64,000 nt of DNA, taken from positions 1,116,001 through 1,180,000 of the forward strand of contig NC_015312.1 in assembly GCF_000196675.2 (NCBI RefSeq), read 5' to 3'. Shown here piece by piece: positions 32,573 through 57,363 of the stretch (positions are counted from its first letter, which is position 1; the number at the start of each line of letters is the position of its first letter). The translations under genes and the position numbers were made by a program. The notes under the pieces were generated by a model. It worked only from the letters and a program-made list of their open reading frames with translations, made no database searches and was not told the DNA's origin. The stretch is from Pseudonocardia benzenivorans CB1190 (GTDB lineage Bacteria; Actinomycetota; Actinomycetes; Mycobacteriales; Pseudonocardiaceae).

Positions 32573-34122
32573 GGCGGATCGTGGTGGTGGGCAACGGGAT
32601 GGTCGGCGCCCGGTTCGCCGACGAGGTGCGCCGCCGCGGGGGCGCCCGGCTGACCGTCGTCGGCGCGGAGTCGCATCCCGCCTACAACCGGGTGCTGCTC
32701 TCGACGGTCCTCGCCGGCGGGGTCGCCCCGTCGGCGATCGCGTTGCAGCCCACCGGCTGGGCCGCCGACCACGGCATCGACGTGCGCTCGGGCGTCGCGG
32801 CCACGTCGATCGACCCGGTGGCACGCACGGTGACCTGCTCCGACGGCGCGCTACTGCGCTACGACGACCTCGTGCTCGCCACCGGCAGCCGGGCCTGGCT
32901 GCCGCCGGTGCCGGGCCTGCCGGGACCGGGCGTCGTACCGTTCCGCGACCTCGACGACTGCCTCGCCATCCTCGACATGGCCCGTCCCGGTGCGCGGCTG
33001 GCCGTCCTCGGCGGCGGGCTGCTCGGTCTGGAGGCCGCCCGCGGGCTCGCCGCGCGGGGCGTCGAGGTCACCGTCGTCCACCCGGCGGGGCACCTGATGG
33101 AACGTCAGCTCGACGCGGGCGCCGGCGCGGTGCTGGCCGACGTCGTCGACCGGCTCGGGGTCCGGCTGCTGGTCGGCGTCGGTGCAGTCTCCTGGGCGCC
33201 GGGTGTGGGTCTGACCTGCGACGACGGCTCGCTGCTCGCCGTGGACGGGCTGGTCGTCGCCGCCGGTGTGCGGGCGGAGACCGGGCTGGCCGCCGACGCG
33301 GGCGCACGGGTCGACCGCGGCATCGTCGTCGACGACCGGCTCGCCGCCTCGCTGCCGGACGTCCACGCCATCGGCGACTGCGCCCAGCACGACGGAGCCC
33401 CACCCGGGCTGGTCCAGCCGGGCTGGGAGCAGGCGGCGGTGCTGGCCGACCTGCTCACCGGCGCCGACCCGGCCGCGCGCTACCGCGGCACCCGGGCCGT
33501 CACCCGGCTCAAGGCCCGCGGGGTGGACCTGACCGCCGTCGGCGACGTCCACGCCGAGGACGACGACGCCACGGAGCTGTTGCGGCTCACCGACTCCCGG
33601 CGCGGCCGGTACGCGAAGCTGGCGCTGCGCGACGACCGCGTCGTCGGCGGGATCATGATCGGCTTCCCGGACGCCGCGGCGTCGGTGATCCAGCTGCACG
33701 ACACCGGGTCGCCCGCACCGTCGGACCGGCTCGCGCTGCTGCTCGGGCGGGCCCTGCCGGGCGAGGCGACGCCCACGGCCGACCCCGGGCGGCTGCCCGC
33801 GGCTGCGGTGGTGTGCCGGTGCAACACCGTCACCAAGGGGGCGCTCGTCACCGCCTGGCGCTCCGGGGCCACCGACCTCGGCGCCCTGCGCACCGCCACC
33901 CGCGCCGGCACCGGTTGCGGCAGCTGCGCCGCGACCGTCGAGGGCATCTGCGGGTGGCTGGCCGCGACGGACGCGCCCGCCGATCCGGCGCCGCCCCAGC
34001 TGCAGGAACGGCACTTTCCCGCAGCCCAGTTGCAGGAAAGTGCCGTTCCTGCAGGACGGGACGGCCCCACCACGCAGGACGACGAGCCCGCGCACGACTA
34101 CGACAGGGAGGGGGCGGCATGA
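32569..34122 (+). CDS. FAD oxidoreductase, nitrate reductase electron-transfer partner
   Basis: 517 aa. Two Rossmann motifs (VVVGNGMVGARF and VLGGGLLGLEAARG) and a BFD-type [2Fe-2S] domain near residues 414-452 (CRCNTVTKG, GTGCGSC). This is the layout of NasB/NasC-like subunits feeding NAD(P)H electrons to NasA, or of the N-terminal half of NirB. Its start overlaps nasA and its stop overlaps nirB. The last 40 residues are encoded by the 53-bp palindrome ([19 protein letters not shown]) and look unrelated to the family; they are an insertion or extension at the C-terminus. Confidence 0.9.
   Translation: MRRIVVVGNGMVGARFADEVRRRGGARLTVVGAESHPAYNRVLLSTVLAGGVAPSAIALQPTGWAADHGIDVRSGVAATSIDPVARTVTCSDGALLRYDDLVLATGSRAWLPPVPGLPGPGVVPFRDLDDCLAILDMARPGARLAVLGGGLLGLEAARGLAARGVEVTVVHPAGHLMERQLDAGAGAVLADVVDRLGVRLLVGVGAVSWAPGVGLTCDDGSLLAVDGLVVAAGVRAETGLAADAGARVDRGIVVDDRLAASLPDVHAIGDCAQHDGAPPGLVQPGWEQAAVLADLLTGADPAARYRGTRAVTRLKARGVDLTAVGDVHAEDDDATELLRLTDSRRGRYAKLALRDDRVVGGIMIGFPDAAASVIQLHDTGSPAPSDRLALLLGRALPGEATPTADPGRLPAAAVVCRCNTVTKGALVTAWRSGATDLGALRTATRAGTGCGSCAATVEGICGWLAATDAPADPAPPQLQERHFPAAQLQESAVPAGRDGPTTQDDEPAHDYDREGAA
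34000..34054. repeat. 53-bp palindromic repeat, copy A (inside a gene)
   Basis: Core 34001-34053. Arms of 20 bp (CTGCAGGAACGGCACTTTCC and its complement) flank a 15-nt centre that can also form a short GCA/TGC helix. It is the same element as copies B (38970-39022) and C (53466-53518). Here it is read through as the C-terminal coding sequence of the flavoprotein gene. Confidence 0.95.
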
Positions 34123-36656
34123 CCCGGGAGCTGGTCGTCGTCGGGCACGGGATGGTCGGGCACCGGCTGGTCTCCGCGTTGCGCGACCGCGACACCGCAG
34201 GAACCTGGCACGTCACGGTGCTGGGCGAGGAGGACCGGCCGGCCTACGACCGGGTCGCCCTTTCGTCCTATGTGGATGGACGCACCGAGGACGATCTCGC
34301 GCTGGACGACCACGACGACCCGCGCGTCGACGTCCGGCGCGGCACCCCCGTCGTCGCGATCGACCGCGAGGCCAGGCAGGTGCGCACCGGTTCCGGTGAG
34401 CTGATCGGCTACGACGCGCTGGTCCTGGCGACGGGTTCGGTGCCGTTCGTGCCCCCCGTCCCGGGCCGCGACCTGCCCGGCTGCTTCGTCTACCGCACCC
34501 TCGACGACCTCGACGCGATCACGGCCGCGGCCGAGGCGGCCATGGAGCGCCCGGGGCCCGGCAGGCGGTCGGCGGTCGTCGTCGGCGGTGGGTTGCTGGG
34601 GCTGGAGGCGGCGCGGGCGATGCGCCTGCTCGGGTTGTCGCCGCAGGTCGTCGAGATCGCGCCGCGGCTGATGCCGGTACAGGTCGACGAGGGCGGCGGG
34701 GCGCTGTTGCGCACGCTCGTCGAGCGCCAGGACATCGCGGTGCGCTGCGGGGTCTCGGTGGCGGGAATCGTCGCCGACCGGGGGCGGCTGGTCGCCCAGC
34801 TGTCGGACGGCATCGAGCTGGACGCCGACCTCGTCGTGTTCTCCGCAGGCATCCGCGCCGCGGACGGGCTGGCCCGCGCGGCCGGGCTGGGCGTCGGGGA
34901 GCGGGGCGGGGTGCTGGTCGACGACCGCTGCCGCACGGCCGACGAGCACGTCTGGGCCGTCGGCGAGTGCGCGGCGCTGGAGGGCCGCACCTACGGCCTC
35001 GTCGCGCCCGGCTACGCGATGGCCGAGGTCGTCGCCGACCGGCTGCTCGGCGGCGACGCCCGGATGAGCAGCGCCGAGCTCGACATGTCGACGCAGCTCA
35101 AGCTGCTGGGCGTGGACGTCGCCAGCTTCGGCGACGCACACGCGACGACCGAGGGCGCGCTGCCCGTCGTGATCAACGACCCGGTCGCGGGCACGTACGC
35201 CAAGCTGGTCGTCTCCGACGACGCGTCGACGCTGCTGGGCGGGGTCCTGGTGGGTGACGCGAGTCGGTACGCCGCGCTGCGCCCGCTCGTCGGGTCGGCG
35301 CTGCCCGCCGACCCGGTCGCGTTGATCGCGCCGGACGGGGTCGAGCTGGGGGCCGACGCGCTGCCCGACAGCGCCCAGGTGTGTTCGTGCAACGCGGTCA
35401 CGAAAGGTGCGCTCCGCGAGGCGATCGCCGAAGGGGCACACGACGTTCCCGCGCTGAAGGCCTGCACGCGGGCCGGGACGAGCTGCGGCTCGTGCGTCCC
35501 GTTGCTCAAGACGATCCTGGTGCAGGAGGGCGTCGAGGTCTCCACGGCGCTGTGCGAGCACTTCGCGTTCTCCCGCGCGGAGCTGTTCGAGATCGTCGCG
35601 GGCGCGGGCATCGCGACGTTCAGCGAGCTCATCGAGACCCACGGCACCGGGCGTGGCTGCGACGTGTGCAAGCCGGTCGTCGCCTCGATCCTCGCCTCGC
35701 TCGGCGGCATCAAGGGGACCGGGGGTCACATCCTGGCGGGCGAGCAGGCGTCATTGCAGGACACGAACGACCGGTTCCTCGCGAACATGCAGCGCGACGG
35801 GACCTACAGTGTCGTGCCGCGCGTGCCCGGCGGGGAGATCACGCCGGACGGCCTGATCGCGATCGGCGAGGTCGCCCGCGACTTCGGGCTGTACACCAAG
35901 ATCACCGGCGGCCAGCGGATCGACCTGTTCGGCGCCCGCGTCGAGCAGCTCCCGGCGATCTGGCGACGGCTGGTCGACGCCGGGTTCGAGTCCGGGCACG
36001 CCTACGGCAAGGCGCTGCGCACGGTGAAGTCGTGCGTCGGCAGCACGTGGTGCCGCTACGGGCAGCAGGACTCGGTGGGGCTGGCCGTCGCGCTGGAGCT
36101 GCGCTACCGCGGGCTGCGCAGCCCGCACAAGATCAAGTCCGGGGTGTCGGGGTGCGCACGCGAGTGCGCGGAGGCCCGGTCGAAGGACTTCGGCATCATC
36201 GCGACCGAGACCGGGTGGAACCTCTACGTCGGCGGCAACGGCGGCTTCACGCCCCGGCATGCCGACCTGCTGGTGTCCGATGTGGACACCGACACGCTGG
36301 TCCGGCTCGTCGACAGGTTCCTGATGTTCTACGTCCGTACCGCGGACCGGCTGCAGCGCACCGCATCCTGGATCGAGGCGATGGACGGGGGACTCGACCA
36401 CCTGCGCGCGGTGATCGTCGACGACTCCCTCGGCATCTGTGCCGACCTGGAGGCGGCGATGGCGGCACACGTCGCGTCGTACGCCGACGAGTGGGCCGGG
36501 GTGCTCGCCGACGAGGACAAGCTGGCGCGCTTCGTGTCCTTCGTCAACGCGCCGGACACGCCGGACCCGACGATCTCGTTCGTGACCGAGCGCGGCCAGC
36601 CCGTGCCGGCGCCCCGCACGCCCGTGTTGATCGGAATCCCGGAGGTGGGGTCGTGA
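34119..36656 (+). CDS. nirB: NAD(P)H nitrite reductase large subunit
   Basis: 845 aa. FAD/NAD domains (VVVGHGMVGHRL; VVVGGGLLGLEAARAM), a BFD-type [2Fe-2S] domain near residues 422-465 (CSCNAVTKG, SCGSC), then the siroheme/[4Fe-4S] domain with CVGSTWCRYG near 637 and SGCAREC near 677, completing the four cysteines. It reduces nitrite to ammonium in the cytoplasm. Start and stop overlap the neighbouring genes (ATGA, GTGA). Siroheme is supplied by the two genes after nirD. Confidence 0.96.
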   Translation: MTRELVVVGHGMVGHRLVSALRDRDTAGTWHVTVLGEEDRPAYDRVALSSYVDGRTEDDLALDDHDDPRVDVRRGTPVVAIDREARQVRTGSGELIGYDALVLATGSVPFVPPVPGRDLPGCFVYRTLDDLDAITAAAEAAMERPGPGRRSAVVVGGGLLGLEAARAMRLLGLSPQVVEIAPRLMPVQVDEGGGALLRTLVERQDIAVRCGVSVAGIVADRGRLVAQLSDGIELDADLVVFSAGIRAADGLARAAGLGVGERGGVLVDDRCRTADEHVWAVGECAALEGRTYGLVAPGYAMAEVVADRLLGGDARMSSAELDMSTQLKLLGVDVASFGDAHATTEGALPVVINDPVAGTYAKLVVSDDASTLLGGVLVGDASRYAALRPLVGSALPADPVALIAPDGVELGADALPDSAQVCSCNAVTKGALREAIAEGAHDVPALKACTRAGTSCGSCVPLLKTILVQEGVEVSTALCEHFAFSRAELFEIVAGAGIATFSELIETHGTGRGCDVCKPVVASILASLGGIKGTGGHILAGEQASLQDTNDRFLANMQRDGTYSVVPRVPGGEITPDGLIAIGEVARDFGLYTKITGGQRIDLFGARVEQLPAIWRRLVDAGFESGHAYGKALRTVKSCVGSTWCRYGQQDSVGLAVALELRYRGLRSPHKIKSGVSGCARECAEARSKDFGIIATETGWNLYVGGNGGFTPRHADLLVSDVDTDTLVRLVDRFLMFYVRTADRLQRTASWIEAMDGGLDHLRAVIVDDSLGICADLEAAMAAHVASYADEWAGVLADEDKLARFVSFVNAPDTPDPTISFVTERGQPVPAPRTPVLIGIPEVGS

Positions 36657-37036
36657 CCGCAGCCGTACTCACGGTGTGGACGGCCGTGTGCCGTGTGGAC
36701 CAGCTGGAGCCCGAGCGCGGGGTGGCCGCGCTGCTCGGCGGGCGACAGGTCGCGCTGTTCCGCACCCACGACGGGACGGTGCACGCCATCGGCAACATCG
36801 ACCCGTTCTCCGGCGCCGCGGTGCTCTCACGCGGCATCGTCGGTGACCGCGGCGGGGTCCCGACGGTGGCCTCGCCCGTCTACAAGCAGGTGTTCTCCCT
36901 GGTCGACGGCAGATGCCTGGACGACGACACGGTCCGGGTGGACGTCTACGACGTCCGTCTCCGCCACGGCACCGTGGAGGTCGCGGTCGAGGACACGGTC
37001 GACCGCCCGGGCACGGCTCCGTGGGCCGGGCGATGA
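36653..37036 (+). CDS. nirD: Nitrite reductase small subunit
   Basis: 127 aa, Rieske-like fold. GTVHAIGNIDPFSGAAVL and TVASPVYKQVFSLVDGRCL follow the Rieske pattern, but the cluster-binding Cys and His are missing, which is normal for NirD. It partners NirB. The GTG start overlaps the nirB stop and its own stop overlaps the next ATG. Confidence 0.95.
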   Translation: MTAAVLTVWTAVCRVDQLEPERGVAALLGGRQVALFRTHDGTVHAIGNIDPFSGAAVLSRGIVGDRGGVPTVASPVYKQVFSLVDGRCLDDDTVRVDVYDVRLRHGTVEVAVEDTVDRPGTAPWAGR

Positions 37037-38223
37037 TCGTGGCGGTCGCCGGACAGGGACGCGAGGCCGCGCCGGTGCCGCCGCTGGCGGGCTTCACCGT
37101 CGGGGTCACCGCGGCCCGCCGGGCCGACGAGCTCGCGACGATGCTGGAGCGCCGCGGCGCCGTCGTGCAGCACGGGCCGGCGCTGCGGATCGTCCCGCTC
37201 GCCGACGACGCGCAGCTGCTCGAGAGCACCCGCGCCCTCATCGCGCGGCCGCCCGACGTCACCGTCGCCACGACGGGGATCGGGTTCCGCGGCTGGATCG
37301 AGGCTGCCGAGGGCTGGGGCCTGGGCGACGACCTGATCACGGTGCTGGGCAAGGGAACCGTGCTCGCCCGGGGGCCCAAGGCGCGCGGGGCGATCCGGGC
37401 GTCGGGGCTGGTCGACGCGTGGTCGCCGGAGTCGGAGTCCTCCGCCGAGGTGCTCGACCACCTGCTCGCGTCCGGTGTGGACGGACAGCGGATCGCCGTA
37501 CAGCTGCACGGGGAACCGTTGCCGGACATGGTCGAGGCGCTCGCGATGGCAGGCGCCGAGGTCGTCCAGGTGCCCGTGTACCGGTGGCTGCCGCCCGCCG
37601 ACGTCGGCCCGCTCGACCGGCTGACCGACGCCGTTCTCACCGGCGGCGTCGACGTCCTGACGTTCACCAGCGCGCCCGCCGCGGCCAGCCTGCTCGCCAG
37701 GGCCGGCAAGCGCGGCCTGCGCGACGCGCTGCTCGCCGCGCTGCGCGGGCCGGTCCTCGCGATGTGCGTCGGTCCGGTGACGGCCGCGCCGCTGCAGGAC
37801 GTCGACGTCCCGACCGCCCAGCCGCACCGCTCCCGGCTCGGCGCGATGGTCCGCGAGCTGGAGGTCGTCGCGCCCGCGCGGGCACGCTGGCTGCCCGTCG
37901 CCGGGCACGTCCTGGAGCTGCGTGGGCACGCCGTGCTCGTCGACGGTGCCCTGCGTCCCGTGCCGCCGACCGGGATGGCGCTGCTGCGGGTCCTGGCCCG
38001 CCGTCCGGGGCGGGTCGTCGCGCGCGCGGAGCTGCTGCGCGCCCTGCCCGGCGGCGGCGACGACGAGCACGCCGTCGAGACCGCCGTCGCCCGGCTGCGG
38101 TCTGCGGTGGGGGAGCCGAAACTGGTGCAGACCGTCGTCAAACGGGGGTACCGGCTCGCACTCGACCCCGCCGCCGGTCCCGTCCCGCTCGGTGGCCACT
38201 GCGGCGCCGGAGGCCTGCGGTGA
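37033..38223 (+). CDS. Uroporphyrinogen-III synthase fused to a winged-helix domain
   Basis: 396 aa. Residues about 18-265 are HemD-like (FTVGVTAARRADELATMLER; FTSAPAAASLLARAG). Residues about 280-385 form an OmpR-type winged helix (GMALLRVLARRPGRVVARAE, then AVETAVARLRSAVGEPKLVQ, VKRGYRL). This is the Rv0260c arrangement, found beside nirBD in mycobacteria. It may make the siroheme precursor, act as a regulator of the nitrate genes, or both. The start overlaps the nirD stop. Confidence 0.9.
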   Translation: MIVAVAGQGREAAPVPPLAGFTVGVTAARRADELATMLERRGAVVQHGPALRIVPLADDAQLLESTRALIARPPDVTVATTGIGFRGWIEAAEGWGLGDDLITVLGKGTVLARGPKARGAIRASGLVDAWSPESESSAEVLDHLLASGVDGQRIAVQLHGEPLPDMVEALAMAGAEVVQVPVYRWLPPADVGPLDRLTDAVLTGGVDVLTFTSAPAAASLLARAGKRGLRDALLAALRGPVLAMCVGPVTAAPLQDVDVPTAQPHRSRLGAMVRELEVVAPARARWLPVAGHVLELRGHAVLVDGALRPVPPTGMALLRVLARRPGRVVARAELLRALPGGGDDEHAVETAVARLRSAVGEPKLVQTVVKRGYRLALDPAAGPVPLGGHCGAGGLR

Positions 38224-38891
38224 CCCCCCTTCTCCTCGTGGCGCACGGCAGCCGGTCCGGGGACGTGGCCGGCTCCCTCGCGTCCGCGGTGGCCGCGCGC
38301 TCCGGGCTCGACGTGCGCCTCGCCTATGCCGACGTCCGCGGTCCGACCGTCGCCGAGACCGTCGCCGACCTGCCGCACGCCGTCGTCGTGCCCGCGTTCC
38401 TCGCGGCTGGTCACCACGTCCGCCGCGACCTGCCCGCGCAGCTCGCCGCCGCCGGCGCCGGCGCGTTCCCGGTGACGCGCGCGATCGGCCCGGACCCGCT
38501 GCTGGCGTCGGCGGCGCTCGACCGGCTGCGGGAGGCGGGATGGCGCCACGGCGACGCCGTCGTGCTGGCCGCCGCGGGATCGGCCGACGCGGTCGCGCTC
38601 GGCCAGGTGCGGCAGGCCGCCCGTCAGCTGCAGGTCGCGATCGGACGCCGGGTCCGCGTCGGGTTCGCCGCCTCCGCGGCGCCGCGTGTCGACGCCCTGG
38701 TCGCGGGGCTACGGGCGGCGGGGGAGGAACGGGTCGCCGTCGCGACCTGGCTGCTGGCGCCGGGCGTGTTCGCCGACCGCGTCGCCGCCTGCGGTGCCGA
38801 CGTCGTCAGCGTTCCCCTGGGCACGCATCCCGGCGTCGTCGACGCGATCCTGGCGCGCTACGAGAGGGCCCTCGCCCAGCCGGCCGCGTAG
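38220..38891 (+). CDS. Sirohydrochlorin chelatase (CbiX/SirB-like)
   Basis: 223 aa. VAHGSRSGD at the N-terminus supplies the metal-binding His; AFLAAGHHVRRDLP near residue 65 supplies the second. Two related half-domains are visible, as in CbiX-type enzymes. It probably inserts iron into sirohydrochlorin for NirB. The GTG start overlaps the previous stop, completing the run of six overlapping genes from nasA. Downstream is palindrome copy B and a convergent gene. Confidence 0.9.
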   Translation: MTPLLLVAHGSRSGDVAGSLASAVAARSGLDVRLAYADVRGPTVAETVADLPHAVVVPAFLAAGHHVRRDLPAQLAAAGAGAFPVTRAIGPDPLLASAALDRLREAGWRHGDAVVLAAAGSADAVALGQVRQAARQLQVAIGRRVRVGFAASAAPRVDALVAGLRAAGEERVAVATWLLAPGVFADRVAACGADVVSVPLGTHPGVVDAILARYERALAQPAA

Positions 38892-38969
38892 GAGCCTGCT
38901 CACGAGTGCGGGGCGCGTGCCGTTGCCCGCGCGGGCCGCGGCGTCCCGGTCCCTGGGCCGTGGGATTTG

Positions 38970-39022
38970 TGCAGGAACGGCACTTTCCCGCAGCCCGGTT
39001 GCGGGAAAGTGCCGTTCCTGCA
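38970..39022. repeat. 53-bp palindromic repeat, copy B (between convergent genes)
   Basis: Perfect 23-bp arms (TGCAGGAACGGCACTTTCCC plus GCA, and complement) with a 7-nt centre, GCCCGGT. It lies 78 bp after the chelatase stop and 14 bp before the end of the convergent ATL gene, a position where it can terminate both transcripts. No other feature is seen in this 145-bp gap. Confidence 0.95.
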
Positions 39023-39036
39023 GTCCGCGGCAGGCC

Positions 39037-39318
39037 TCAGCGGCGGCGGTGCTCGCGGGGGAGCCGGCCGTCCACCAGCAGGACACCCTCCGCGCGCAGC
39101 CGTGCCGCCTGCTCGACGGCGATGTGCGGGGCGGGGGTGCCGTCGGCGCGGAGCACGCGGTGCCACGGGATGTCGTGGCCGTCCTCGGCGAGGATGCGCC
39201 CGACGATGCGCGGCGTGCTGAGCCCGAGCTGGGCGGCGATCTCGCCGTAGGTCGACGTCTGGCCCGGCGGGATCGCGCGGACGGCCGCGCGCACGGCTTC
39301 GACGGTCGCGTCGTCCAT
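39037..39318 (-). CDS. Alkyltransferase-like (ATL) protein
   Basis: 93 aa, the C-terminal DNA-binding domain of the MGMT family. TSTYGEIAAQLG is the HTH region with the Tyr/Arg elements, and the active-site motif reads IPWHRVL: the alkyl-accepting cysteine of PCHRV is tryptophan. Such ATL proteins bind O6-alkylguanine and hand it to nucleotide excision repair instead of reversing it. It corresponds to Rv3204, which in mycobacteria adjoins Rv3205c; here the nitrate block lies between. It is 17 bp after the LipV-like gene start region on the same strand. Confidence 0.9.
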   Translation of the reverse strand: MDDATVEAVRAAVRAIPPGQTSTYGEIAAQLGLSTPRIVGRILAEDGHDIPWHRVLRADGTPAPHIAVEQAARLRAEGVLLVDGRLPREHRRR

Positions 39319-39334
39319 CGGGCCTCCCGGAAGC

Positions 39335-40123
39335 TCAGCCGAGGATGAACTCGCGGATGTGCGCGGCCACCTCGTCGGTGCGTTCGAGGAACAGCATGTG
39401 CCCCGCCTCGATCTCCGCCACCGTCAGGTCGTTGCCGAGCGCCGCCCCGCACTGGTCGAGCCAGGCCTGTTCGACGAAGTCGCCGCGCGTCGCCGGCAAG
39501 ATCAACGTCGGCGTGCCGGCGGGTGGCACCACCGCGGGCCGCGCCAGCTCGTTCCACGCGACGACGGCGGCCGACCGCAGGTAGCGCCACTCCCAACGGC
39601 CCTCGAAGTGCGCGAGGTGCGCGGCGACCTCGGCCTCGACCAGCGCGGCGTCGACACCCTTCCAACGGTCGGCCCGGTCGGCCCGGGCCGCCTCGAGGTC
39701 GGGGAAGGACTCGTCGGTCCGGGTGTCCTCGGCGGTCTCGAGCATGTCGTCGGGGTCGAGGCCGATCGCCGGGTCGAGCAGCACGAGCCGCTCGACGCGC
39801 TCGGGCGCGGTGCGCGCGAGATGCACGGCGACCGCCCCGCCGAACGAGTGCCCGACGACCGCGACGTCCTCGATCTCCAGCCGGTCGAGCACCGCGATGG
39901 CGTCGGCGACGTGCTGCTCGATGTTCCACGGCGGGCTCCACGGCGACCGGCCGTGTCCCCGCAGGTCGACGCCGATCCAGCGGAGCTCGGGGACCGCCTC
40001 GGCCAACGGCGCCCAGCGCGCCCCGTGCCCGCTCACCCCGTGCAACGCGAGCACCGGCACCCCGACGGGGTTGCCGAAGGTGTGCACGTGCAGGCGCCGG
40101 GCGTTCTCGGACACTCCCGTCAC
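39335..40123 (-). CDS. Alpha/beta hydrolase (LipV-like)
   Basis: 262 aa. GHSFGGAV is the nucleophile elbow near residue 95, LHGVSGHG the oxyanion loop, and AGHMLFLE the catalytic His near 243. It corresponds to Rv3203 (LipV) in the conserved order ATL-LipV-AdnA. No signal peptide. Start is uncertain between GTG 40123 (MTGVSENARR) and GTG 40114 (MSENARR); the domain begins just after. It reads toward the ATL gene, probably co-transcribed with it, and is divergent from adnA. Confidence 0.88.
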   Translation of the reverse strand: MTGVSENARRLHVHTFGNPVGVPVLALHGVSGHGARWAPLAEAVPELRWIGVDLRGHGRSPWSPPWNIEQHVADAIAVLDRLEIEDVAVVGHSFGGAVAVHLARTAPERVERLVLLDPAIGLDPDDMLETAEDTRTDESFPDLEAARADRADRWKGVDAALVEAEVAAHLAHFEGRWEWRYLRSAAVVAWNELARPAVVPPAGTPTLILPATRGDFVEQAWLDQCGAALGNDLTVAEIEAGHMLFLERTDEVAAHIREFILG

Positions 40124-40203
40124 TCTGCCATCCCCGTCGGTGCCGAAATGTGGGTGGGGGCGGTGACCCGAAGATCGTCGGTGGGACGTGGTCGAATCGT
40201 CGC

Positions 40204-46500: not shown

Positions 46501-47246
46501 CACAGCCGCAGTCCGGCTCCCGCCCGGACGCTCCCCACGCGCCCGACGCTCCCGTCCTCGATCCGGACGACCCGGAGGGCTGGGCCGCAGATGTCGACGT
46601 CCTGCTCGCGGAACGCGCCGCGGCCGCACAGCGGCCGGTCGTGGAGCTGCCCGCGCACTTCTCGGTCAGCCAGCTCGTGGAGCTCGCCGCCGACCCCGAT
46701 GCGCTGGCCGCCCGCCTGCGCCGTCCCCTCCCGCTCCCGCCCAACCCGCACGCGCGGCGCGGCACGGCGTTCCACGCCTGGCTGGAGCAGCGGTTCGGCG
46801 CGGCCGGGCTCCTCGACCTCGACGAGCTCCCCGGCGCCGCGGACGACGGCGCGGCCCCCGACGACGTGCTCGAGGAACTGCAGGACGCGTTCCTCGCCTC
46901 GGAGTGGGCCGACCGCCGTCCGGTCGAGGTCGAGGTGCCGTTCGAGACGGTGATCGCCGGGATCGCGGTCCGCGGACGGATGGACGCGGTGTTCCAGGAC
47001 CCCGACGGCGGCTGGACGGTCGTCGACTGGAAGACCGGTCCGCCGCCGGACGAGAGCCGGCTCGGAGCGCTGGCCGTGCAGCTCGCGGCCTACCGACTCG
47101 CATGGGCCGCGCTGCAAGGGGTTGATCCGTCCCGGGTGCGGGCGGCGTTCCACTACGTGCGCTCGCGCCGCACCCTGCGCCCGGCCGACCTCCTCGACGC
47201 GGACGGCCTGCGCGCCCTGCTCGACGGCGTCCCCGTCCGCGCCTGA
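43572..47246 (+). CDS. adnB: Helicase-nuclease subunit AdnB
   Basis: 1224 aa, counterpart of Rv3201c. UvrD-type motor with Walker A AGAGAGKTE near residue 43, LDEYQDT near 281, GDPCQSIYGWRGA and VLTVHAAKGLEWE. A Gly/Ala-rich, probably disordered linker (about residues 890-990) precedes the PD-(D/E)XK nuclease (FHAWLEQRFG, RGRMDAVFQD, VVDWKTG). Unlike AdnA it has no C-terminal Fe-S cysteine group. Translationally coupled to adnA. The linker is longer and more repetitive than I would expect. Confidence 0.95.
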   Translation: MSLSPASLAAALGLPPPTEEQAAVIAAPSRPALVVAGAGAGKTETMAARVVWLVATGQVLPEQVLGLTFTRKAAQQLGQRVRSRLRRLAGSPLLDELDPTGVRRASVLAGEPTVSTYHAYAGRLVAEHALRLPAEPAARLLTQTASWQLAHRVVSTWADDLEIDRVPATVTGYLLALAGEIGEHLADPAAVRRLAHEMADALENAPRAKGQRAEPSQTYKRWITAQRMRAELLPLVEAFAARKRAERTIDFADQMAIAARVAHEHPEVGATERATYRAVLLDEYQDTGHAQRVLLRALFGRIPGTPARDDDLSVTAVGDPCQSIYGWRGASAGNLARFRGDFPSGDAPADEYGLLTSFRNPPEVLALANTVSEPLRTAPGAVAVGELRAGPTAAVGDVRAALLPDVDAEIAWMADAVAAQWRSADAEGRPAPTSAVLVRRRADMDPVAAALRARGLPVEVVGLGGLLDTPEVRDLVSALRLVADPLAGPAAMRLLTGARFRLGVADLAALWARARELVPPMPGRGPGPLGPAELALGALPGEQAEQAGIVDALDDPGPPEQYSPAGFDRIRRLGRDLMWLRARTSAPLTDLVADAERLLLLDTETAARPGPVGRAHLDAFADVVAEFSAGAEVASLTALLDYLETAEQAEDGLAPGEIEVTPDRVQVLTVHAAKGLEWEIVAVPHLVAQVFPGRKIGGDWLTSPAELPVPLRGDAADLPAFDLPAGADRKECEAAVTAHQRALDDRRLVEERRLFYVALTRAERVLLLSGHRWGAVGDKPREPSEFLVEVARAMPAAGGRVEIWADEIGEGASNPVADRQVTAQWPADPLGGRSADVHAGAELVRSALRELARRRADTLAAAAAPGAQLDLLVLGSDAADVPVRDGRGWSGGAAAGTGPAGSASDDEASGGIASAATAPGGEVSGGAASGAAASGTAQAGAAQAGGEQAGGRGRGGASDSATDPGAPDPEAAGRSRAQPQSGSRPDAPHAPDAPVLDPDDPEGWAADVDVLLAERAAAAQRPVVELPAHFSVSQLVELAADPDALAARLRRPLPLPPNPHARRGTAFHAWLEQRFGAAGLLDLDELPGAADDGAAPDDVLEELQDAFLASEWADRRPVEVEVPFETVIAGIAVRGRMDAVFQDPDGGWTVVDWKTGPPPDESRLGALAVQLAAYRLAWAALQGVDPSRVRAAFHYVRSRRTLRPADLLDADGLRALLDGVPVRA

Positions 47247-47254
47247 CCGGTCGG

Positions 47255-47465
47255 GCGACGGTGAGGATACGCGCGAGGGGCGGGCCGCAACCTGGTGGTC
47301 GTGCCGCAGCGGGGCGACGATCCTGAGGTTGCGCCCGGGTCGGCGGGCGCAACCTGAGCGTCGTGGTCGCGCGTCCGCCGAGCAGTGAGGTTGCGCCCGG
47401 GTGGTCGGCCGCAACCTGGCGGTCGTGCCGCGGCGCTGGGGCGACCGTGAGGTTGCGCTCGGCAG
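47255..47465. repeat. 62-bp tandem repeat array with internal hairpins
   Basis: The block TGAGGTTGCG recurs at 47324, 47386 and 47448, with a degenerate copy at 47262, and GCAACCTG recurs at 47287, 47349 and 47411: exact 62-bp period. Within each unit AGGTTGCG and CGCAACCT are inverted repeats (11 bp in the best unit). The array fills most of the 304-bp gap between adnB and the convergent DoxX gene. The rest of the gap (47466-47550) shows no gene. Confidence 0.9.
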
Positions 47466-47550
47466 TGCGTCGGACGGCGCCTCGATGCCGCGCCGCCGGT
47501 CCCCGGCAGCCGCCGCCGGAACCGGCGCCCGCCGCCGACCCCCGCCGCGC

Positions 47551-47925
47551 TCAGGACGCCAGGTCCACGAACCGGACGACGGCCACGAAGGCGCCGGCGG
47601 CCGCCAGCACGAGCGGCGGCACGACAGCGGCGAACTCCTTGCGCCGCACGTGCACCACGACGGCGCCGAGCAGGAGCAGGGCCAGCGCTGCGCCGGCGAC
47701 GGGCGTGAGCACCGGTGCCACCCCGAGCGCCCAGGGCAGGATCAGCCCCACCGCCCCGACGACCTCCGCCGCTCCGATGAGCTTGACCGCGGTGTCGCTG
47801 AAGTCCTCGGCCCACGGCATGCCCATCGAGATCAGGTCCTTGCGGTGCCGGGCGAGCTTCGTCCCACCGGCGAAGAGCATCGCCGCGGCCAGTATCCCCT
47901 GCACGATCCACGTTGCGACGTCCAC
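47551..47925 (-). CDS. DoxX-family membrane protein
   Basis: 124 aa, four predicted helices (TWIVQGILAAAMLFAGGTKL; LIGAAEVVGAVGLILPWAL; VAGAALALLLLGAVVV; LVLAAAGAFVAVVRF). FAGGTKL and AAEVVGAVGLIL fit the DoxX family. The GTG at 47925 has GGGAGG 7 nt upstream; an in-frame start at 47964 would cut into the operator. It is divergent from the MarR gene with shared palindromes, so MarR probably represses it. DoxX proteins are often tied to thiol or oxidative stress. Confidence 0.88.
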   Translation of the reverse strand: MDVATWIVQGILAAAMLFAGGTKLARHRKDLISMGMPWAEDFSDTAVKLIGAAEVVGAVGLILPWALGVAPVLTPVAGAALALLLLGAVVVHVRRKEFAAVVPPLVLAAAGAFVAVVRFVDLAS

Positions 47926-47950
47926 GTCGCCACCTCCCGAGTCGAACCAA

Positions 47951-47997
47951 ACTTGAACACTCAAGTCACATCAGAATGTGACGCTTGAATTCTCAAG
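47951..47997. promoter_or_regulatory. Nested MarR operators
   Basis: Three palindromes: ACTTGAACACTCAAGT (47951-47966), GTCACATCAGAATGTGAC (47965-47982) and CTTGAATTCTCAAG (47984-47997). The first and third share TTGA-N4-TCAA and are 32 bp apart, three helical turns. They lie between the DoxX and MarR starts. Confidence 0.75.
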
Positions 47998-48014
47998 TCA
48001 AGTCACGACTCGGC

Positions 48015-48020
48015 TACGCT
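48015..48020 (+). promoter_or_regulatory. -10 box TACGCT before marR
   Basis: TACGCT ends 6 nt before the GTG at 48027; the MarR mRNA is probably leaderless. The nearest palindrome ends 17 bp upstream, well placed to block this promoter. Confidence 0.5.
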
Positions 48021-48026
48021 GATCCG

Positions 48027-48590
48027 GTGTCCACGTCCGCCGACGCCGCCGACCCGGGTCCGGAGCCCCGCTGGCTCGATGCCGACGAGCGGCAGAGCTG
48101 GCTCGCGTTCAGCGGGATGCTGCTGACCCTCCCGGGAGTGCTCGACGCCCAGCTCCAGCGCGAGGCCGATCTCACGCTCTTCGGCTATCTCGTCATGGCC
48201 GGGCTGTCCGACGCGCGCGACCGGACGCTGCGCATGAGCGAGCTGTCGGTCTTGACGCAGGGATCGCTGTCGCGGCTCTCGCACGCGGTCGCGAAGCTGG
48301 AGCGCAACGGCTGGGTCGTCCGCAGGCCGTGCCCGGGCAACGGTCGCGTCACCATCGCGACGCTCACCGACGCGGGTCTCGCCAAGCTGGAGGACGCGGC
48401 GCCCGGGCACGTCGAGTTCGTCCGGCGGCTCGTCCTCGACCCGGCCGGCCGCGAGGGGTTCGCCCACCTCGGGGAGCTGTCGCGGCGCATCCTGGGCGCG
48501 AGCGTCGACGCCGGCTGCCCGACGGTCCCTGCGGACGGGCTCCGGCCCGGCACCGCACCGTCCGATGCGGCCCGGAGTGCCGGCCGTTAG
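48027..48590 (+). CDS. MarR-family transcriptional regulator
   Basis: 187 aa. Winged helix: MSELSVLTQGSLSRLSHAVA, KLERNGWVVRRPCPGNGRVT; N-terminal helices for dimerisation. The GTG at 48027 sits 6 nt after a TACGCT box; an in-frame ATG/GTG at 47985 would overlap the operator. Divergent from DoxX with palindromes between. Cys in RRPCPGNG near the wing may be redox-active (speculative). The C-terminal tail is disordered. Confidence 0.9.
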   Translation: MSTSADAADPGPEPRWLDADERQSWLAFSGMLLTLPGVLDAQLQREADLTLFGYLVMAGLSDARDRTLRMSELSVLTQGSLSRLSHAVAKLERNGWVVRRPCPGNGRVTIATLTDAGLAKLEDAAPGHVEFVRRLVLDPAGREGFAHLGELSRRILGASVDAGCPTVPADGLRPGTAPSDAARSAGR

Positions 48591-48593
48591 CGT
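48588..48593 (+). promoter_or_regulatory. -10 box TAGCGT (overlaps marR stop)
   Basis: TAGCGT begins with the marR stop codon and ends 6 nt before the ATG at 48600, so the next gene has its own leaderless promoter. Confidence 0.5.
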
Positions 48594-48599
48594 GCGGGG

Positions 48600-49715
48600 A
48601 TGACCGGCAGGATCGTGCTCCTCGGCGCCACCGGGTACACCGGCGGACGCACGGCCGAGGCGATGGTCGCCCGCGGCCTGCGGCCCGTCCTCGCGGGCCG
48701 CGACCCGGACCGGATCGGTGCCCTCTCCGCCCGCCTCGGCGACCTTCCGACGGCCGTCGCCGACGTCACCGACGCCGCCTCGATCCGGGCTCTCCTGCAG
48801 CCCGGTGACGTCCTGGTGACGACGGTCGGGCCGTTCCTGCGGCTGGGCGCCGCGGCGGTCGCGGCCGCGGTCGACGCGGGGGCCGTCTACCTGGACTCGA
48901 CGGGTGAGCCGCCGTTCATTCGCGAGGTCCACGAGGTGCACGGCCCGCGTGCCGCGACGTCGGGCGCCGCGCTGCTCACCGCGTTCGGCAACGACTACGT
49001 GCCCGGCGTGCTCGCGGGCGCGCTCGCGCTGCGCGACGCCGGACCCGGCGCCCGGCGGGTCGACGTCGGCTACTTCCTGACCGGCGCCGGCCGCGGCCGG
49101 GCGTTCTCGCGCGGGACGGTCGACTCCGTCGTCGGCATCATGAACCGGCCGACCTACGCCTTCCGGGACGGCGGGCTGCGCGAGGAGGCGGGGGCGTCGC
49201 GGATGCGGACGTTCCTCGTCGACGGCCGACCCCGACCCGGCGTGACGATCGGCGCCTCCGAACAGTTCGCCCTGCCGCGGCTCGCGCCCGCCCTGCGCAC
49301 CGTCGACGTCTACCTCGGCTGGTTCGGAGCCGCGAGCCCGGCGCTGCACGCCTCGCGCCGGATCACGCCGCTGCTCGGAAGGGTCCCGGTCGTCCCGGGC
49401 ATGACGACGGCGCTGCTGCAGAAGGCCGTCGCCCGGATGCCGGCCGCACCCGACGCGGCGACCCTCGAGCGGACGACGTCGCACTTCGTCGCGGAGGTCT
49501 TCGACCACACGGGGACCCTGCTGGCCCGCACGCACCTGACCTCGCCGGACGGTTACGCGATCACCGCAGGGCTGCTCGCGTGGGGTGCCGGGCGCGCCGC
49601 GGAGCGCGGTGTCGCCGGCACGGGCGCGCTGGACGCCGTCACCGCCTTCGGCCTCGACGATCTTGCCGCGGGCGCCGCGGAGGTGGGCATCGTCCCAGTT
49701 CAGCCGCGGGAGTGA
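48600..49715 (+). CDS. Saccharopine dehydrogenase-like protein (trans-acting enoyl reductase type)
   Basis: 371 aa. Rossmann motif VLLGATGYTGGRTAEAM at the N-terminus and DSTGEPPFIREVHE near residue 100, typical of saccharopine dehydrogenase C-terminal superfamily proteins such as mycobacterial trans-acting enoyl reductases. No lysine-pathway genes are nearby, so a lipid-related oxidoreductase is more likely. Own TAGCGT box; starts 9 nt after the marR stop. Confidence 0.82.
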   Translation: MTGRIVLLGATGYTGGRTAEAMVARGLRPVLAGRDPDRIGALSARLGDLPTAVADVTDAASIRALLQPGDVLVTTVGPFLRLGAAAVAAAVDAGAVYLDSTGEPPFIREVHEVHGPRAATSGAALLTAFGNDYVPGVLAGALALRDAGPGARRVDVGYFLTGAGRGRAFSRGTVDSVVGIMNRPTYAFRDGGLREEAGASRMRTFLVDGRPRPGVTIGASEQFALPRLAPALRTVDVYLGWFGAASPALHASRRITPLLGRVPVVPGMTTALLQKAVARMPAAPDAATLERTTSHFVAEVFDHTGTLLARTHLTSPDGYAITAGLLAWGAGRAAERGVAGTGALDAVTAFGLDDLAAGAAEVGIVPVQPRE

Positions 49716-49752
49716 TCGCGGAGGTCACACGCCCTGCGGCGCCGGCGCGCGC

Positions 49753-49758
49753 TACCCT
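49753..49758 (+). promoter_or_regulatory. -10 box TACCCT before the K+ channel gene
   Basis: TACCCT ends 8 nt before the ATG at 49767, again a leaderless layout. Confidence 0.45.
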
Positions 49759-49766
49759 CCGCGACG

Positions 49767-50825
49767 ATGAACGAGCGGGTGCGGCGCCGGGGAGCCGACG
49801 GTGGGGGCGTAGGCGCGCTGCGCATGCCCGATCCGACGGTCGGCCCGGTCGTGTCCCTGGTCCGCCGGCTGGCGGTCGCGCTCGGCGCGCTGTTCGCGAC
49901 GGCGCTGATCGTCTGGCTCTCCCGCGACGGCTACGTCGACAACAACGAGGACGGCAGCGGCATCTCGTTCCTCGACGCGCTGTACTACGCGACGGTCTCC
50001 CTCTCGACGACGGGCTACGGCGACATCGTCCCGGCCACGGAGATGACGCGCCTGGTCACGACGATCGTCATCACCCCGCTGCGCCTGCTGTTCCTCATCG
50101 TCCTGGTCGGTACGACGGTCGAGCTGCTCACCGAGCGGTCGCGCCAGGCGTTCCGCATCACCCGCTGGAGGTCACGCGTGCGCGACCACACCGTCGTCGT
50201 CGGCTACGGCACCAAGGGCCGTGCCGCGGTCGACACGCTGCTCGGCGACGGTGTCGATCCGTCGGAGATCGTCGTCGTCGACACCGACCGCACCCAGCTC
50301 GACGCGGCGTCCGCGCTCGGGCTGGTCACCGTGACGGGCAACGCGACGCGGTCGAGCGTGCTGCGCGTCGCCGGCGTGCAGTACGCGTCGGCCATCGTGA
50401 TCGCGACGAACCGCGACGACACCGCCGTGCTGGTGACGCTGACCGCGCGGGAGCTGGCCCCGAAGGTCACGATCGTCGCGGCGGTGCGGGAGTCGGAGAA
50501 CGTCCACCTGCTGCGTCAGTCGGGCGCGAACTCGGTCATCGTCTCGGCGGAGACGGCGGGCCGGCTGCTGGGCGTCGCGACCACCACCCCGAGTGTCGTC
50601 GAGGTGATCGAGGACCTGCTGACGCCCGACGCCGGGTTCGCGATCAGCGAGCGGCCCGTCGAGGAGTCGGAGGTCGGCGGGTCGCCGCGGCACCTGCCCG
50701 ACATCGTGCTGGGCGTCGTGCGCGGCAACGAGCTGGTCCGGGTCGACTCGGCGGCCGTCGACGCCCTCGAACGCGGCGACCGGCTCCTCTACGTGCGCAA
50801 GGCGACCCCCGCGGACGACGACTGA
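49767..50825 (+). CDS. Two-TM potassium channel with RCK domains (Rv3200c-like)
   Basis: 352 aa. TM1 about residues 31-52, selectivity filter TTGYGD near residue 82, TM2 about 95-118, then a cytoplasmic RCK/TrkA-N domain (HTVVVGYGTKGRAAVDTLL) and a TrkA-C-like end. A K+-selective channel gated by nucleotides or Ca2+-like ligands; counterpart of Rv3200c, which in mycobacteria directly precedes nudC. Here 12 kb of other genes intervene. Confidence 0.93.
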   Translation: MNERVRRRGADGGGVGALRMPDPTVGPVVSLVRRLAVALGALFATALIVWLSRDGYVDNNEDGSGISFLDALYYATVSLSTTGYGDIVPATEMTRLVTTIVITPLRLLFLIVLVGTTVELLTERSRQAFRITRWRSRVRDHTVVVGYGTKGRAAVDTLLGDGVDPSEIVVVDTDRTQLDAASALGLVTVTGNATRSSVLRVAGVQYASAIVIATNRDDTAVLVTLTARELAPKVTIVAAVRESENVHLLRQSGANSVIVSAETAGRLLGVATTTPSVVEVIEDLLTPDAGFAISERPVEESEVGGSPRHLPDIVLGVVRGNELVRVDSAAVDALERGDRLLYVRKATPADDD

Positions 50826-50847
50826 CCGTCCGGGCCGGCGTGCGGGC

Positions 50848-52038
50848 TCACGAGCCGACGAGGTCCCGGACGACGCCGAGGGCCGCACCCTGCAGGGCCG
50901 CGTCCCGGCCCAGCGCCGCGCTCAGCACCCGCACGGGCGGGCGGACCAGCACGCGCGACCGCAGCGCCGCGGCGACCCGCTCCACCAACGCGTCGCCGAG
51001 CCGCGCGTAGACCCCGCCGAGCACGACGGCGGGCACGTCGAGCAGGTTGACCGCGCCGGCCAGCGCGACGCCCAACGCCGATCCCGCGACGTCGAGCGCC
51101 GGTCCCGGACCGCGCACGAGGGAGTCCACATCGGACACGTTTGCGGCCCGCAGCAGCGCGGCCACGCCGGCGACGGTCTCCAGGCACCCCGTCCCCCCGC
51201 AGGTGCAGGACCGCCCCGCCGGGTCGACGACGACGTGCCCCAGCTCGCCCGCGCGACCACCCGCCCCGCGGAAGAGCCGGCCGTCGAGCAGGACGCCCGC
51301 GCCGACGCCCACGCCGCCGGACACGAACAGCATGTCGCGCAGGCCCCGCCCGGACCACAGCTCGGCGAGCGCGGCCAGGTCGGCCTCGTTGGCGGCGGTG
51401 ACCGGGACGTCCCGGTGCAGCGCGGCGCGCAGCAGCTCGGCGACCCCGACGTCCTGCCACCGCGGCAGGTTGGGTGCGCGCTGCAGGACACCCGCGGGTG
51501 TCACGACGCCCGGCAGCGCCACCCGCACCTCGGCGATGGTCAGCCCGGACTCGGCGACCACCTCGGCGACGAGCCCGGCGGCACGGGCGAGGCCGTGGGC
51601 CGGGTCGCGGTGACGATGGTCCGAGGGCACGCGCCGCGCCACCCGGACGGCCCCGGTGAGGTCGGCGACGCAGGCCGCGACGTCGTCGACGCCGATCTCG
51701 AGGCCCACGCCGCCGGGGCCGGACGGGTTGAGCTGCAACGGGTTCGCCGGTCGCCCGCGGCCACCGCGCGGCGCCTCGAGCTCGACGAGCATGCCGTCGG
51801 CGAGCAGGTCGTCGACGAGCGAGGAGACGGTGCCGCGGGTCAGGCCGGTGCGGGCGGCGATCGCGGCCCGGGAGGCTGCGGCGTCGGCGACCGCGCCGAG
51901 CACGAGCCCCCGGTTGTGCCGGCGCACCGTCGCGGGGCCCGCCGGTTCCGGGGCGGCCGGCCCGGCGGGGACCGGGCCGGCCGCGCCGGGTGCCGCCAGG
52001 GGCGGTCCGCCGGGGAGCGGCGTCTGGGGTCGCGTCAC
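50848..52038 (-). CDS. ROK-family transcriptional regulator (XylR type)
   Basis: 396 aa. N-terminal winged helix ([20 protein letters not shown]) after a Pro/Ala-rich start, then the ROK sugar-kinase-like domain with the zinc motif CTCGGTGC near residue 250. DNA-binding ROK proteins of this type respond to xylose. Its GTG overlaps the xylB stop, so it is the last gene of xylA-xylB-xylR and would regulate its own operon through the palindrome at 54731-54745. Confidence 0.9.
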
Positions 52039-53441
52039 GCGAGCCGCGGCGCGGTCATGTCGCGGACGGCGGCGTAGCGCTCGCGGACCGCGGGGGTCGG
52101 GTCGGCCTCGTGGACGACGGTGCCGGCGGCCTCCCATTCGGGCGGGAGGTCGGCCCCGGAGAGCACCCAGGCCGCCTGACGCGCCGCGCCGTCGGCCACG
52201 TAGTCACCCGGCGTCGGCACGACGACGGGCCTGCCGAACACCGCGGGAGCGATCCGCGCGACCGCCTCCGACCGCGCGGCACCGCCGACCAGCAACACCC
52301 GCTCGACGGGCACGCCTGCCTCGACCAGCGCGTCGAGCGCGTCCGCCAGCCCGCACAGCAGGCCCTCGACGGCGGCGCGCGCGAGATGGCCCGGCCGGCC
52401 CGTCGTCAGGGTGAGACCGTGCAGCGAGCCGGTCGCGTCGGGGCGGTTCGGGGTGCGTTCGCCCTCCAGGTACGGGACGAGGACGAGCCCGCCCGCGCCC
52501 GCCGGGGCGCCGAGCGCGAGCCGCGACAGCTCGTCGTGGTCGACGCGCAGCAGCGTCGCGGCGGCGTCGAGGACCCGGGCGGCGTTGAGCGTGCACACCA
52601 GCGGCAGGTGCTCCCCGGTCGCTGAGGCGAACCCGGCGATCACCCCCGTCGGGTCGGCGGTCGCGACCGGGCTGATCGCGCTCACGACGCCGGAGGTCCC
52701 CAGCGAGACGACGACGTCGCCGGGCCGCGCGCCCAGCCCGAGCGCGGCGGCGGCGTTGTCCCCGGCACCGGGCCCGACGGCGACGCCGGCCGGGGTGCAG
52801 CCGACCCGCTCGGCAGGCGCCGCCACGCGCGGGACGAGCACGCCGGTCCGGCCGAGCGCCCGTTCGAGCAGGTCGAAGCGGTACTCGCCGGTCGCCGCCG
52901 AGAAGTAGCCGGTGCCGGAGGCGTCGCTGCGGTCGGTTACGAGGTCGTCCAGCGAGCCGGTGCCGCGCAGCCGCCAGCTCAGCCAGTCGTGGGGGAGCGC
53001 GACGGCCTCGGTCGCGGCGGCGTGGTCCCGTTCGTGCGTCGCCAGCCACCGCAGCTTCGTGACGGTGAACGACGCGACCGGCACGCTCCCCGTCGCGTCC
53101 GCCCAGGTCTGGGCGCCGAGCTCGGCGACCAGCTCGTCGGCGGCCGCCGCGGAGCGGGTGTCGTTCCACAGCAGGGCGGGCCGGACCACCTCGCCCGCCG
53201 CGTCGAGGCACACCATCCCGTGCTGCTGGGCACCGACGGAGATCGCGGCGACGTCGTCGAGCCCGCCTGCCGCGGCGAGGGCGTCCTGCAGGGCCGACCA
53301 CCACGCTCCGGGGTCTACCGAGGTCCCGGCCGGGTGCGGCGCGACCCCGCGCCGGACGAGCTCACCGGTCGACGCGTCCCGGATCACGACGGTGCACGAC
53401 TGCGTCGACGAGTCCACCCCCGCGACGAGCACCCGCGTCAC
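52035..53441 (-). CDS. xylB: Xylulokinase
   Basis: 468 aa FGGY kinase. [15 protein letters not shown] at the N-terminus (phosphate 1), the MQQHGMV-like [10 protein letters not shown], catalytic Asp in [13 protein letters not shown] near residue 222, and [12 protein letters not shown] near 380. Phosphorylates D-xylulose in the cytoplasm. Starts at GTG 53441; the 88-bp gap to xylA holds palindrome copy C. Confidence 0.94.
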
Positions 53442-53465
53442 GCCGCGGCTCCCGGCCCGCCCCGT

Positions 53466-53518
53466 TGCAGGAACGGCACTTTCCCGCAACCCAGTTGCGG
53501 GAAAGTGCCGTTCCTGCA
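53466..53518. repeat. 53-bp palindromic repeat, copy C (between xylA and xylB)
   Basis: 24-bp perfect arms (TGCAGGAACGGCACTTTCCC plus GCAA, and complement) with a 5-nt centre CCCAG. It lies 11 bp after the xylA stop and 24 bp before the xylB start, inside one operon. It may lower xylB expression or protect the xylA mRNA end. Confidence 0.95.
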
Positions 53519-56602: not shown

Positions 56603-57261
56603 TGACGGCTCCCGCCGCCGGGCTCGACAGCCCTGGCGACGACACGGCGAGAAGCGGCCACGCGCGCGGCGGAGTCCGGCGGTGGCGCGTCCTGGCCGGG
56701 GTGCTCGGTGCGGTCTGCGTGCTCGCCGGCGTCCTGTTGCTGGTCGCCCGCCCGGCGCACGACGTCGGAACGGTTCCGGTGGCCGCGCCCGTTGCGGGGG
56801 TACCGGTCGCGCCCGGCGTCGTCCCGGCCACGGTCACGATCCGCGGCGTCGACACCCCGGCGGTTCCGGTGTCGACCGCCCCCGACGGGTCGCTGACCCT
56901 GCCCGAGCACCCCACGACCGTCGGCTGGTGGTCGCCGGGCGCGCTGCCGGGTTCGGCGACGGGCTCGGTCGTACTGGCGGGCCACGTCGACTCCCGGGTC
57001 GCCGGCCTCGGAGCCTTCGCGGTGCTGCGTGACCTGCGCGTCGGTGAACGGGTCACCGTGCGGGGCGCCGACGGCCGCGACGTCGGCTACGAGGTCGTGG
57101 CCCGGCGCGAGTACCGCAAGGCCGAGCTCCCGCCCGGGACCTTCGCCCGCGACGGCGCCCCACGGTTGGTGCTGATCACCTGCGGCGGCCGCTTCGACCC
57201 GGTCGCGCGCAGCTACGACGACAACGTCGTGGTGTTCGCGACCCCGGCACAGACCTCGTGA
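56602..57261 (+). CDS. Class F sortase
   Basis: 219 aa. An N-terminal membrane helix (VLAGVLGAVCVLAGVLLLVA, residues 30-49) anchors an outer sortase domain. The catalytic His is in VLAGHVDS near residue 127, Cys in LITCGGRF near 192, and Arg in the RFDPVARSYDDN stretch. It transpeptidates surface proteins; the upstream lipoprotein is the obvious candidate partner although it lacks a canonical signal. The stop lies inside the 22-bp tandem repeat. Confidence 0.9.
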   Translation: MTAPAAGLDSPGDDTARSGHARGGVRRWRVLAGVLGAVCVLAGVLLLVARPAHDVGTVPVAAPVAGVPVAPGVVPATVTIRGVDTPAVPVSTAPDGSLTLPEHPTTVGWWSPGALPGSATGSVVLAGHVDSRVAGLGAFAVLRDLRVGERVTVRGADGRDVGYEVVARREYRKAELPPGTFARDGAPRLVLITCGGRFDPVARSYDDNVVVFATPAQTS

Positions 57262-57312
57262 GTGGCAGGCGCAGACCTCGTGAGTGGCAGGCACAGGCCT
57301 CGTGAGTGGCAA
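57251..57312. repeat. 22-bp tandem repeat, three copies
   Basis: GTGAGTGGC recurs at 57258, 57280 and 57302, a 22-bp period (unit GACCTCGTGAGTGGCAGG plus 4 bases). The first unit contains the sortase stop codon; the last runs into the palindrome at 57301-57342. Confidence 0.9.
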
Positions 57313-57342: not shown

Positions 57343-57363
57343 GGGGGCGCCCGGCGAGCCGGG

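Follow-up and report, generated by a model that had tools for sequence, protein, structure and literature searches.

The three 53-bp palindromes in the window (the whole stretch of 64,000 nucleotides analysed here, C1:1116001–1180000 of a 7.44-Mb Pseudonocardia genome in six contigs) are members of a dispersed hairpin population. This population probably belongs to a dedicated partner protein with an AbiEi-type N-terminus and a DUF559/MTES_1575-like, nuclease-like C-terminus, and the 53-bp palindromes would be non-autonomous members of it. The partner gene is often enclosed by a matched pair of palindromes, and the sequence of this pair follows the protein lineage.

The sequence at all three positions matched the near-perfect 53-bp palindromes of the original prediction. 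Copy 1 (34001..34053) is read through within the 3′-terminal part of a Pyr_redox/Fer2_BFD ORF (32569–34122), copy 2 (38970..39022) has convergent CbiX-like and DNA_binding_1 alkyltransferase-like genes on either side, and copy 3 (53466..53518) is flanked by xylose isomerase-like and FGGY kinase genes; none of the three is assigned a strand. These gene neighbourhoods agree with the unlike settings described before (inside a gene, between convergent genes and inside an operon). The arms are long, as claimed, but the repeat search placed them at 24, 26 and 25 nt, slightly above the earlier values of 20, 23 and 24 bp. The suggestion of a processed RNA hairpin found no support, as none of the Rfam matches within 33000–54500 attained a gathering score, the hairpin matches there all falling below it.

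The arm of this palindrome family, which we designate family A, matched six times in the window and not at all in shuffled sequence. Across the whole genome, allowing up to three mismatches, it gave 34 forward and 32 reverse matches (66 in all) against one match for the reversed-pattern control. No longer element with family-A ends was seen in this genome, where 30 of the 36 arm places form pairs at a spacing of 33 nt and, among the six single arms, five have a weaker partner at that distance; the sixth is located at C1:423660. Thirty-six copies were taken from 32 stretches and the window by a fixed-spacing scan. A covariance model (R1) built on 47 diverse family-A copies returned 102 two-strand matches, corresponding to approximately 51 elements, so the expectation of many copies genome-wide rather than merely three was borne out. 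The family-A stem covaries, with a score of 0.36 versus 0.11 for shuffled alignments (0 of 500 shuffles as high) and changes on both sides in 15 of 25 stem pairs. Because the core of the copies from named genomes was fixed by the search pattern, its invariance there is no proof. Insertion into older terminator stems gained no support from flank complementarity around the 53 bp, which shows no pair-specific excess in the copies of this genome. The flanks of these copies are C-rich from −5 to −9 and G-rich from +5 to +8, a symmetric, target-like preference. The window itself lies inside a cluster of eight family-A copies within 170 kb (C1:1013140–1183304), far denser than the genome average.

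A fourth palindrome of the window, absent from the original prediction, represents a second family, family B. This element (57298..57345, no strand assigned) has the core GTGAGTGGC-N22-GCCACTCAC at 57302–57341 and is preceded on the plus strand by two direct repeats of the family-B half site (57258..57266 and 57280..57288) with a 22-bp period; the TGA of the first repeat is the stop codon of the ORF at 56602–57261. Family B has 52 matches in this genome and up to 178 elsewhere, and occurs in 22 of 62 genomes, with none for the reversed control. A third family, defined by the palindrome of partner locus L335, gave 91 arm matches in 208 kb, six of them within L335 (reversed control 0), a count that covers the TRM90224 loci, 20 of 28 of which were examined. 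Dispersal is therefore seen for three palindrome lineages, namely families A and B and the L335 family.

Related genomes also carry family A. A scan of named genomes returned at least 106 stretches, and those listed comprised 101 from Pseudonocardia, three from Amycolatopsis and two from Rhodococcus. Model R1 matched in 57 of the 62 genomes of the genus, with counts that saturate at the maximum of 94 candidates scored per genome. A pattern fixing just the outer eight bases matched in 61 of these 62 genomes (range 0–208 per genome), although part of its matches are chance or ordinary hairpins; the highest counts were 208 and 114 copies, against 0–1 per strand for the reversed control. A length of 45 nt (53 bp in total) prevails among the matches listed, despite widely differing stems. 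Several deviations from this unit were observed. In the genome with 208 copies (G020, loci L235–L274), the string TCATGCG stands beside the core in 21 of 40 copies and in many the shared sequence extends further, as an asymmetric flank to the left and right; the unit copied there therefore seems to exceed 53 bp. G001 and G003 contain palindromes of 48–50 nt (CGAACGGCCTGGTC...) with the family-A outer end and a different length. Tandem family-A copies (L022, L169, L180, L182, L184, L193 and L195) are spaced at 75–77 or 86–87 bp, classes about one helical turn apart, with spacings of 66, 94, 106, 110 and more also present. Viral contigs gave no match by pattern or with the A6 alignment, and a phage collection searched for L311 gave no match. 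Among plasmids, L316 and L289 matched a Rhodococcus ruber record only and L319 had no match. The family-A and family-B core strings led to no related paper in the open-access literature, family B being judged by title.

In the relative G058, an ORF lies between family-A copies at a site where this genome has a single family-A palindrome. A homolog of this ORF was present in two of 221 loci searched (its own and one other), in both cases between family-A palindromes. Partner-gene homologs were identified in 50 of the 62 genus genomes with one A-type query, so distant partner genes may be missed. We looked at 70 partner-gene loci, of which 30 came from the genus search directly and 40 more from its other matches. 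By a fixed rule, 41 of the 64 loci with full flanks had palindromes on both sides, versus 4 of 133 control genes, and a matched pair was present at 36 of 64 versus 0 of 133 (Fisher p = 3e-22). This rule undercounts L295 and L296, where a stronger unrelated palindrome masked the family-A pair, and a matched pair is also present at two of the six edge loci outside the 64 (L290 and L318). Under the strict rule 28 of the 64 loci are without one; eight of these are distant relatives, including L320 of this genome, which may represent a different class and serve as an inner control. Another distant relative, L327, does carry a palindrome pair. A Rhodococcus ruber homolog annotated as "hypothetical protein" is enclosed by a matched pair of its own.

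The long flanking palindromes are alike at both sides of a gene and differ in sequence by protein lineage. Their similarity is 0.87 within a locus and 0.47 between loci, and protein identity correlates with palindrome similarity (Mantel r = 0.79, 0 of 2,000 permutations, 38 loci, leaving out five whose best-scoring pair failed to match). The partner gene of this genome, L319 (C1:2795720–2796613, outside the window), is flanked by family-B palindromes. No A-type partner gene was found in this genome, the matches being L319 and the unflanked distant relative L320. Since the search gave just these two, the family-A copies look orphaned here; family B has its gene. The earlier statement that no transposase is near fits the window; the partner gene is located elsewhere and belongs to another protein family.

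The partner gene is low-copy and its neighbours on both sides are kept within lineages, as in the L316 group (eight genomes) and at the family-B loci of G000 (this genome), G032 and G058; it is vertically inherited within these lineages. Thirteen of the 70 loci have no neighbour in common with another locus. In 28 of 31 syntenic comparisons, the upstream palindrome was closer to its downstream partner in the same species than orthologous palindromes were between two species, indicating that the flanking pair is rewritten together in place. These comparisons include L289/L293, and the family-A pair of L295 and L296 was entered by hand. Copy number tracks the gene very cleanly for family B, with 52–178 copies in the seven genomes that have a B-type gene (G015 being scored as a carrier from a search match alone) and at most 45 in the remaining 55. 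For family A the relation is less clean, with a median of 33 copies in 15 genomes with an A-type gene versus 9 in the 47 without, a comparison that is mildly circular because the A-type class is defined by the flanking palindrome itself. G020 has the most family-A copies (208, many of them alike), yet no A-type gene was found there, which is the main observation against spreading of the palindromes by the protein; late gene loss or an assembly gap is our guess. G012 has 49 family-A copies and no homolog at E ≤ 1e-5, and G037 contains both family-A and family-B copies with no partner-gene homolog found.

Orthologous sites were compared in relatives, three of which are 84–86% identical to this genome in the region. 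At the copy-1 site, G037 has the same subfamily, G058 has a different subfamily with a second element in tandem, and just half an arm is left in G032. The copy-2 site holds a decayed copy in G037 and a half-lost copy in G032. The copy-3 site, family A here, is occupied by family B in G032, G058, G023 and G010 (GTGAGTGGC-N22-GCCACTCAC or near). Overall, of 37 relative loci compared, 13 were orthologs of loci retrieved from this genome and were occupied, several of them by a different subfamily. No clean empty site was obtained, half-lost copies being found instead, and the search for empty sites of the G020 copies placed all homology outside the intergenic gaps. The palindrome–gene–palindrome arrangement at L193 of G058 corresponds to a single palindrome at L014 and L171 (G000 and G037), a pattern resembling a solo terminal repeat after gene loss.

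The position of the copies relative to genes bears on an alternative that we consider unlikely, namely that they are selected bidirectional transcription terminators or 3′-end mRNA hairpins that spread only occasionally. With gene calls from a simple custom gene caller, the family-A copies of this genome (n = 35) comprised 16 convergent, 15 co-directional and 2 divergent placements and 2 within an ORF; those from named genomes (n = 81, after exclusion of 27 of 108 that were close to locus ends or duplicates) comprised 39 convergent, 30 co-directional, 5 divergent, 6 inside and 1 at an edge. The tandem copy L022:2940 was excluded from these counts. Convergent sites are over-represented both here (16 of 33 intergenic copies versus 12% of the window's intergenic bases, p = 4e-7; p = 2e-5 against the window's share of gene pairs) and in the named genomes (39 of 74 versus a 24% background, p = 1e-7), and divergent placement is rare (2 of 33 and 5 of 74). 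The named-genome copies lie a median of 34.5 bases from a stop codon. In G020 (n = 40) there were 11 convergent, 20 co-directional, 2 divergent, 6 inside and 1 unclassed copies, in both orientations. The family-B copies of this genome (n = 21; 9 convergent, 10 co-directional, 2 inside) adjoin or overlap stop codons, and the occupation of the copy-3 site by family A here and by family B in relatives also speaks for termination. However, termination leaves unexplained why dozens of loci have a common sequence, why families are lineage-specific and why a matched pair surrounds one gene family; moreover, G032 has lost half of each of copies 1 and 2, which are hence not essential.

The partner protein is approximately 320 residues long. 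Each of the nine scanned family proteins matched PADLOC AbiEi models in its N-terminal part (best E per protein 1.8e-12 to 1.9e-5), and the Pfam AbiEi_4 match was weak. In the C-terminal part, MTES_1575 and DUF559, which we take to be of the PD-(D/E)XK type, matched weakly in a few proteins, below Pfam cut-offs in the flanked lineages, and more clearly in distant relatives. A profile comparison (hhalign) of the family with AbiEi+DUF559 relatives, which are mostly unflanked, aligned 276 columns with a probability of 99.8%. The likeness of the family to the DUF559/MTES_1575/Vsr-like nucleases consists of this profile match and an invariant S, E, D, H motif, whereas the flanked lineages differ from them in having drifted below the Pfam cut-offs and in the palindromes on either side. 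Structure prediction for one fragment of the nuclease part, made with no alignment, gave a mean pLDDT of 51, too low for the model to be of use, and a PDB sequence search with A5 yielded three chance-level matches (E 0.37 or worse). Transposase models did not match the gene between palindromes in relatives.

The AbiE type IV toxin–antitoxin system offers a close precedent for the DNA site. According to the part of the work cited here, AbiEi recognises a pair of 23-bp inverted repeats with 3 bp between them and autoregulates through them (PMC3985639); the resulting 23-3-23 bp site is close to the 25-3-25 family-A palindrome. The partner protein shares the AbiEi-type N-terminal domain and differs by its C-terminal nuclease-like domain and by palindromes that both flank the gene and are dispersed; at L319, the locus scanned, the two neighbours match no Pfam family and hence no AbiEii. 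These similarities in the N-terminal domain and in repeat size are what favours an operator role, in which the palindromes would be regulon or nucleoid-type sites of an AbiEi-like regulator with a dead nuclease domain, their spread being otherwise caused; the upstream palindrome of the partner gene could indeed be an operator alone. As an account of the whole population we consider this doubtful, slightly more so than termination, because the sites lie behind genes and not at promoters, as the divergent counts demonstrate, and because S, E, D and H are conserved without exception among the aligned family proteins (25 of 25), of which 23 are flanked by palindromes at either end.

Symmetric sequence change at orthologous sites might in principle arise by mutation alone. 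Across nine orthologous pairs (198 base pairs), which were hand-picked and one of which crosses subfamilies, we counted 8 symmetric pair changes versus approximately 1 expected by chance; 6 of the 8 were transversions. Template switching during replication can yield such symmetric changes, according to the sections of two reports cited here (PMC8794818; PMC8604942), and old insertions without present function could be kept palindromic in this way. Purely mutational maintenance is nevertheless very improbable, since it offers no account of the dispersal, the near-constant size or the partner gene, and the same nine pairs also contain 13 one-sided changes. Template switching may instead act together with a partner protein.

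REP elements are common bacterial repeats, and their spread has reportedly been linked to a single enzyme family, the Y1 RAYTs. The original prediction of a REP/MITE-type element stood with regard to a dispersed, REP-like population of many copies; the Y1 REP transposase that it proposed to look for is lacking, and no consistent target duplication was found. Five of the 62 genus genomes have PF01797; this genome and the copy-rich G020, G060 and G058 do not. The check for flanking target duplications gave no consistent direct repeat in 40 G020 copies, where element ends are uncertain. In the portions of the REP-RAYT literature cited here, RAYTs are described as vertically inherited single-copy genes, often palindrome-flanked and each with its own palindrome family, and the survey lists only subclass 1.1 (IS200-type) members in Actinobacteridae (PMC6006769, PMC8049555). 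The present system resembles REP/REPIN-RAYT (TnpAREP) in its many dispersed, mostly extragenic palindromes and in a vertically inherited, flanked gene with gene-specific families; a cognate flanked gene is likewise present, though for an unrelated protein and, in this genome, for family B alone. It differs in that the partner is an AbiEi + DUF559/MTES_1575-like protein and not a Y1 HUH transposase, that the GTAG/GTGG/CGTC foot tetranucleotide occurs at just 9 of 70 ends, and that the palindromes are nearly perfect (25-3-25). With MITEs the palindromes share short length, repetition and inverted repeats; they differ in that no longer relative with the same ends was seen, and no target duplication was found for them. 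A classic REP/RAYT system or an IS-derived MITE, which would account for dispersed, mostly extragenic palindromes of near-constant size, is therefore the least probable reading and, for RAYT, already contradicted.

We consider it likely that the palindromes and the AbiEi + DUF559/MTES_1575-like protein work as REP-RAYT systems do, with an unrelated enzyme. The protein would spread or homogenise its palindromes as follows. The N-terminal AbiEi-type domain would bind the palindrome, probably with one subunit per arm as proposed for AbiEi, and the C-terminal nuclease-like domain would cut or nick there. Repair could then copy from another palindrome, by homing-like conversion or by transposition, leading to both spread and homogenisation. 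Copying during repair would make both arms alike and could replace one family by another at the same site, and template switching may help arm symmetry.

Among the titles and starts of abstracts listed from the open-access literature, none reported a palindrome family that has an AbiEi/DUF559 protein as its partner. We put at about even the chances that this is a second, independently evolved REP-like class, in which an AbiEi + Vsr/DUF559-type protein keeps, spreads and rewrites its own sites by cutting and copying in Pseudonocardia and Rhodococcus, which fall within a group without RAYTs in the part of the survey cited above. If true, the same architecture in a second enzyme family would mean that populations of palindromes that have a tame partner gene arose more than once, and it would account for the different yet equally palindromic sequences at orthologous sites. 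The system would also provide many natural protein–palindrome pairs for studying the joint evolution of a DNA-binding protein and all of its sites, and a candidate function for a group of "hypothetical" AbiEi/DUF559-like proteins.
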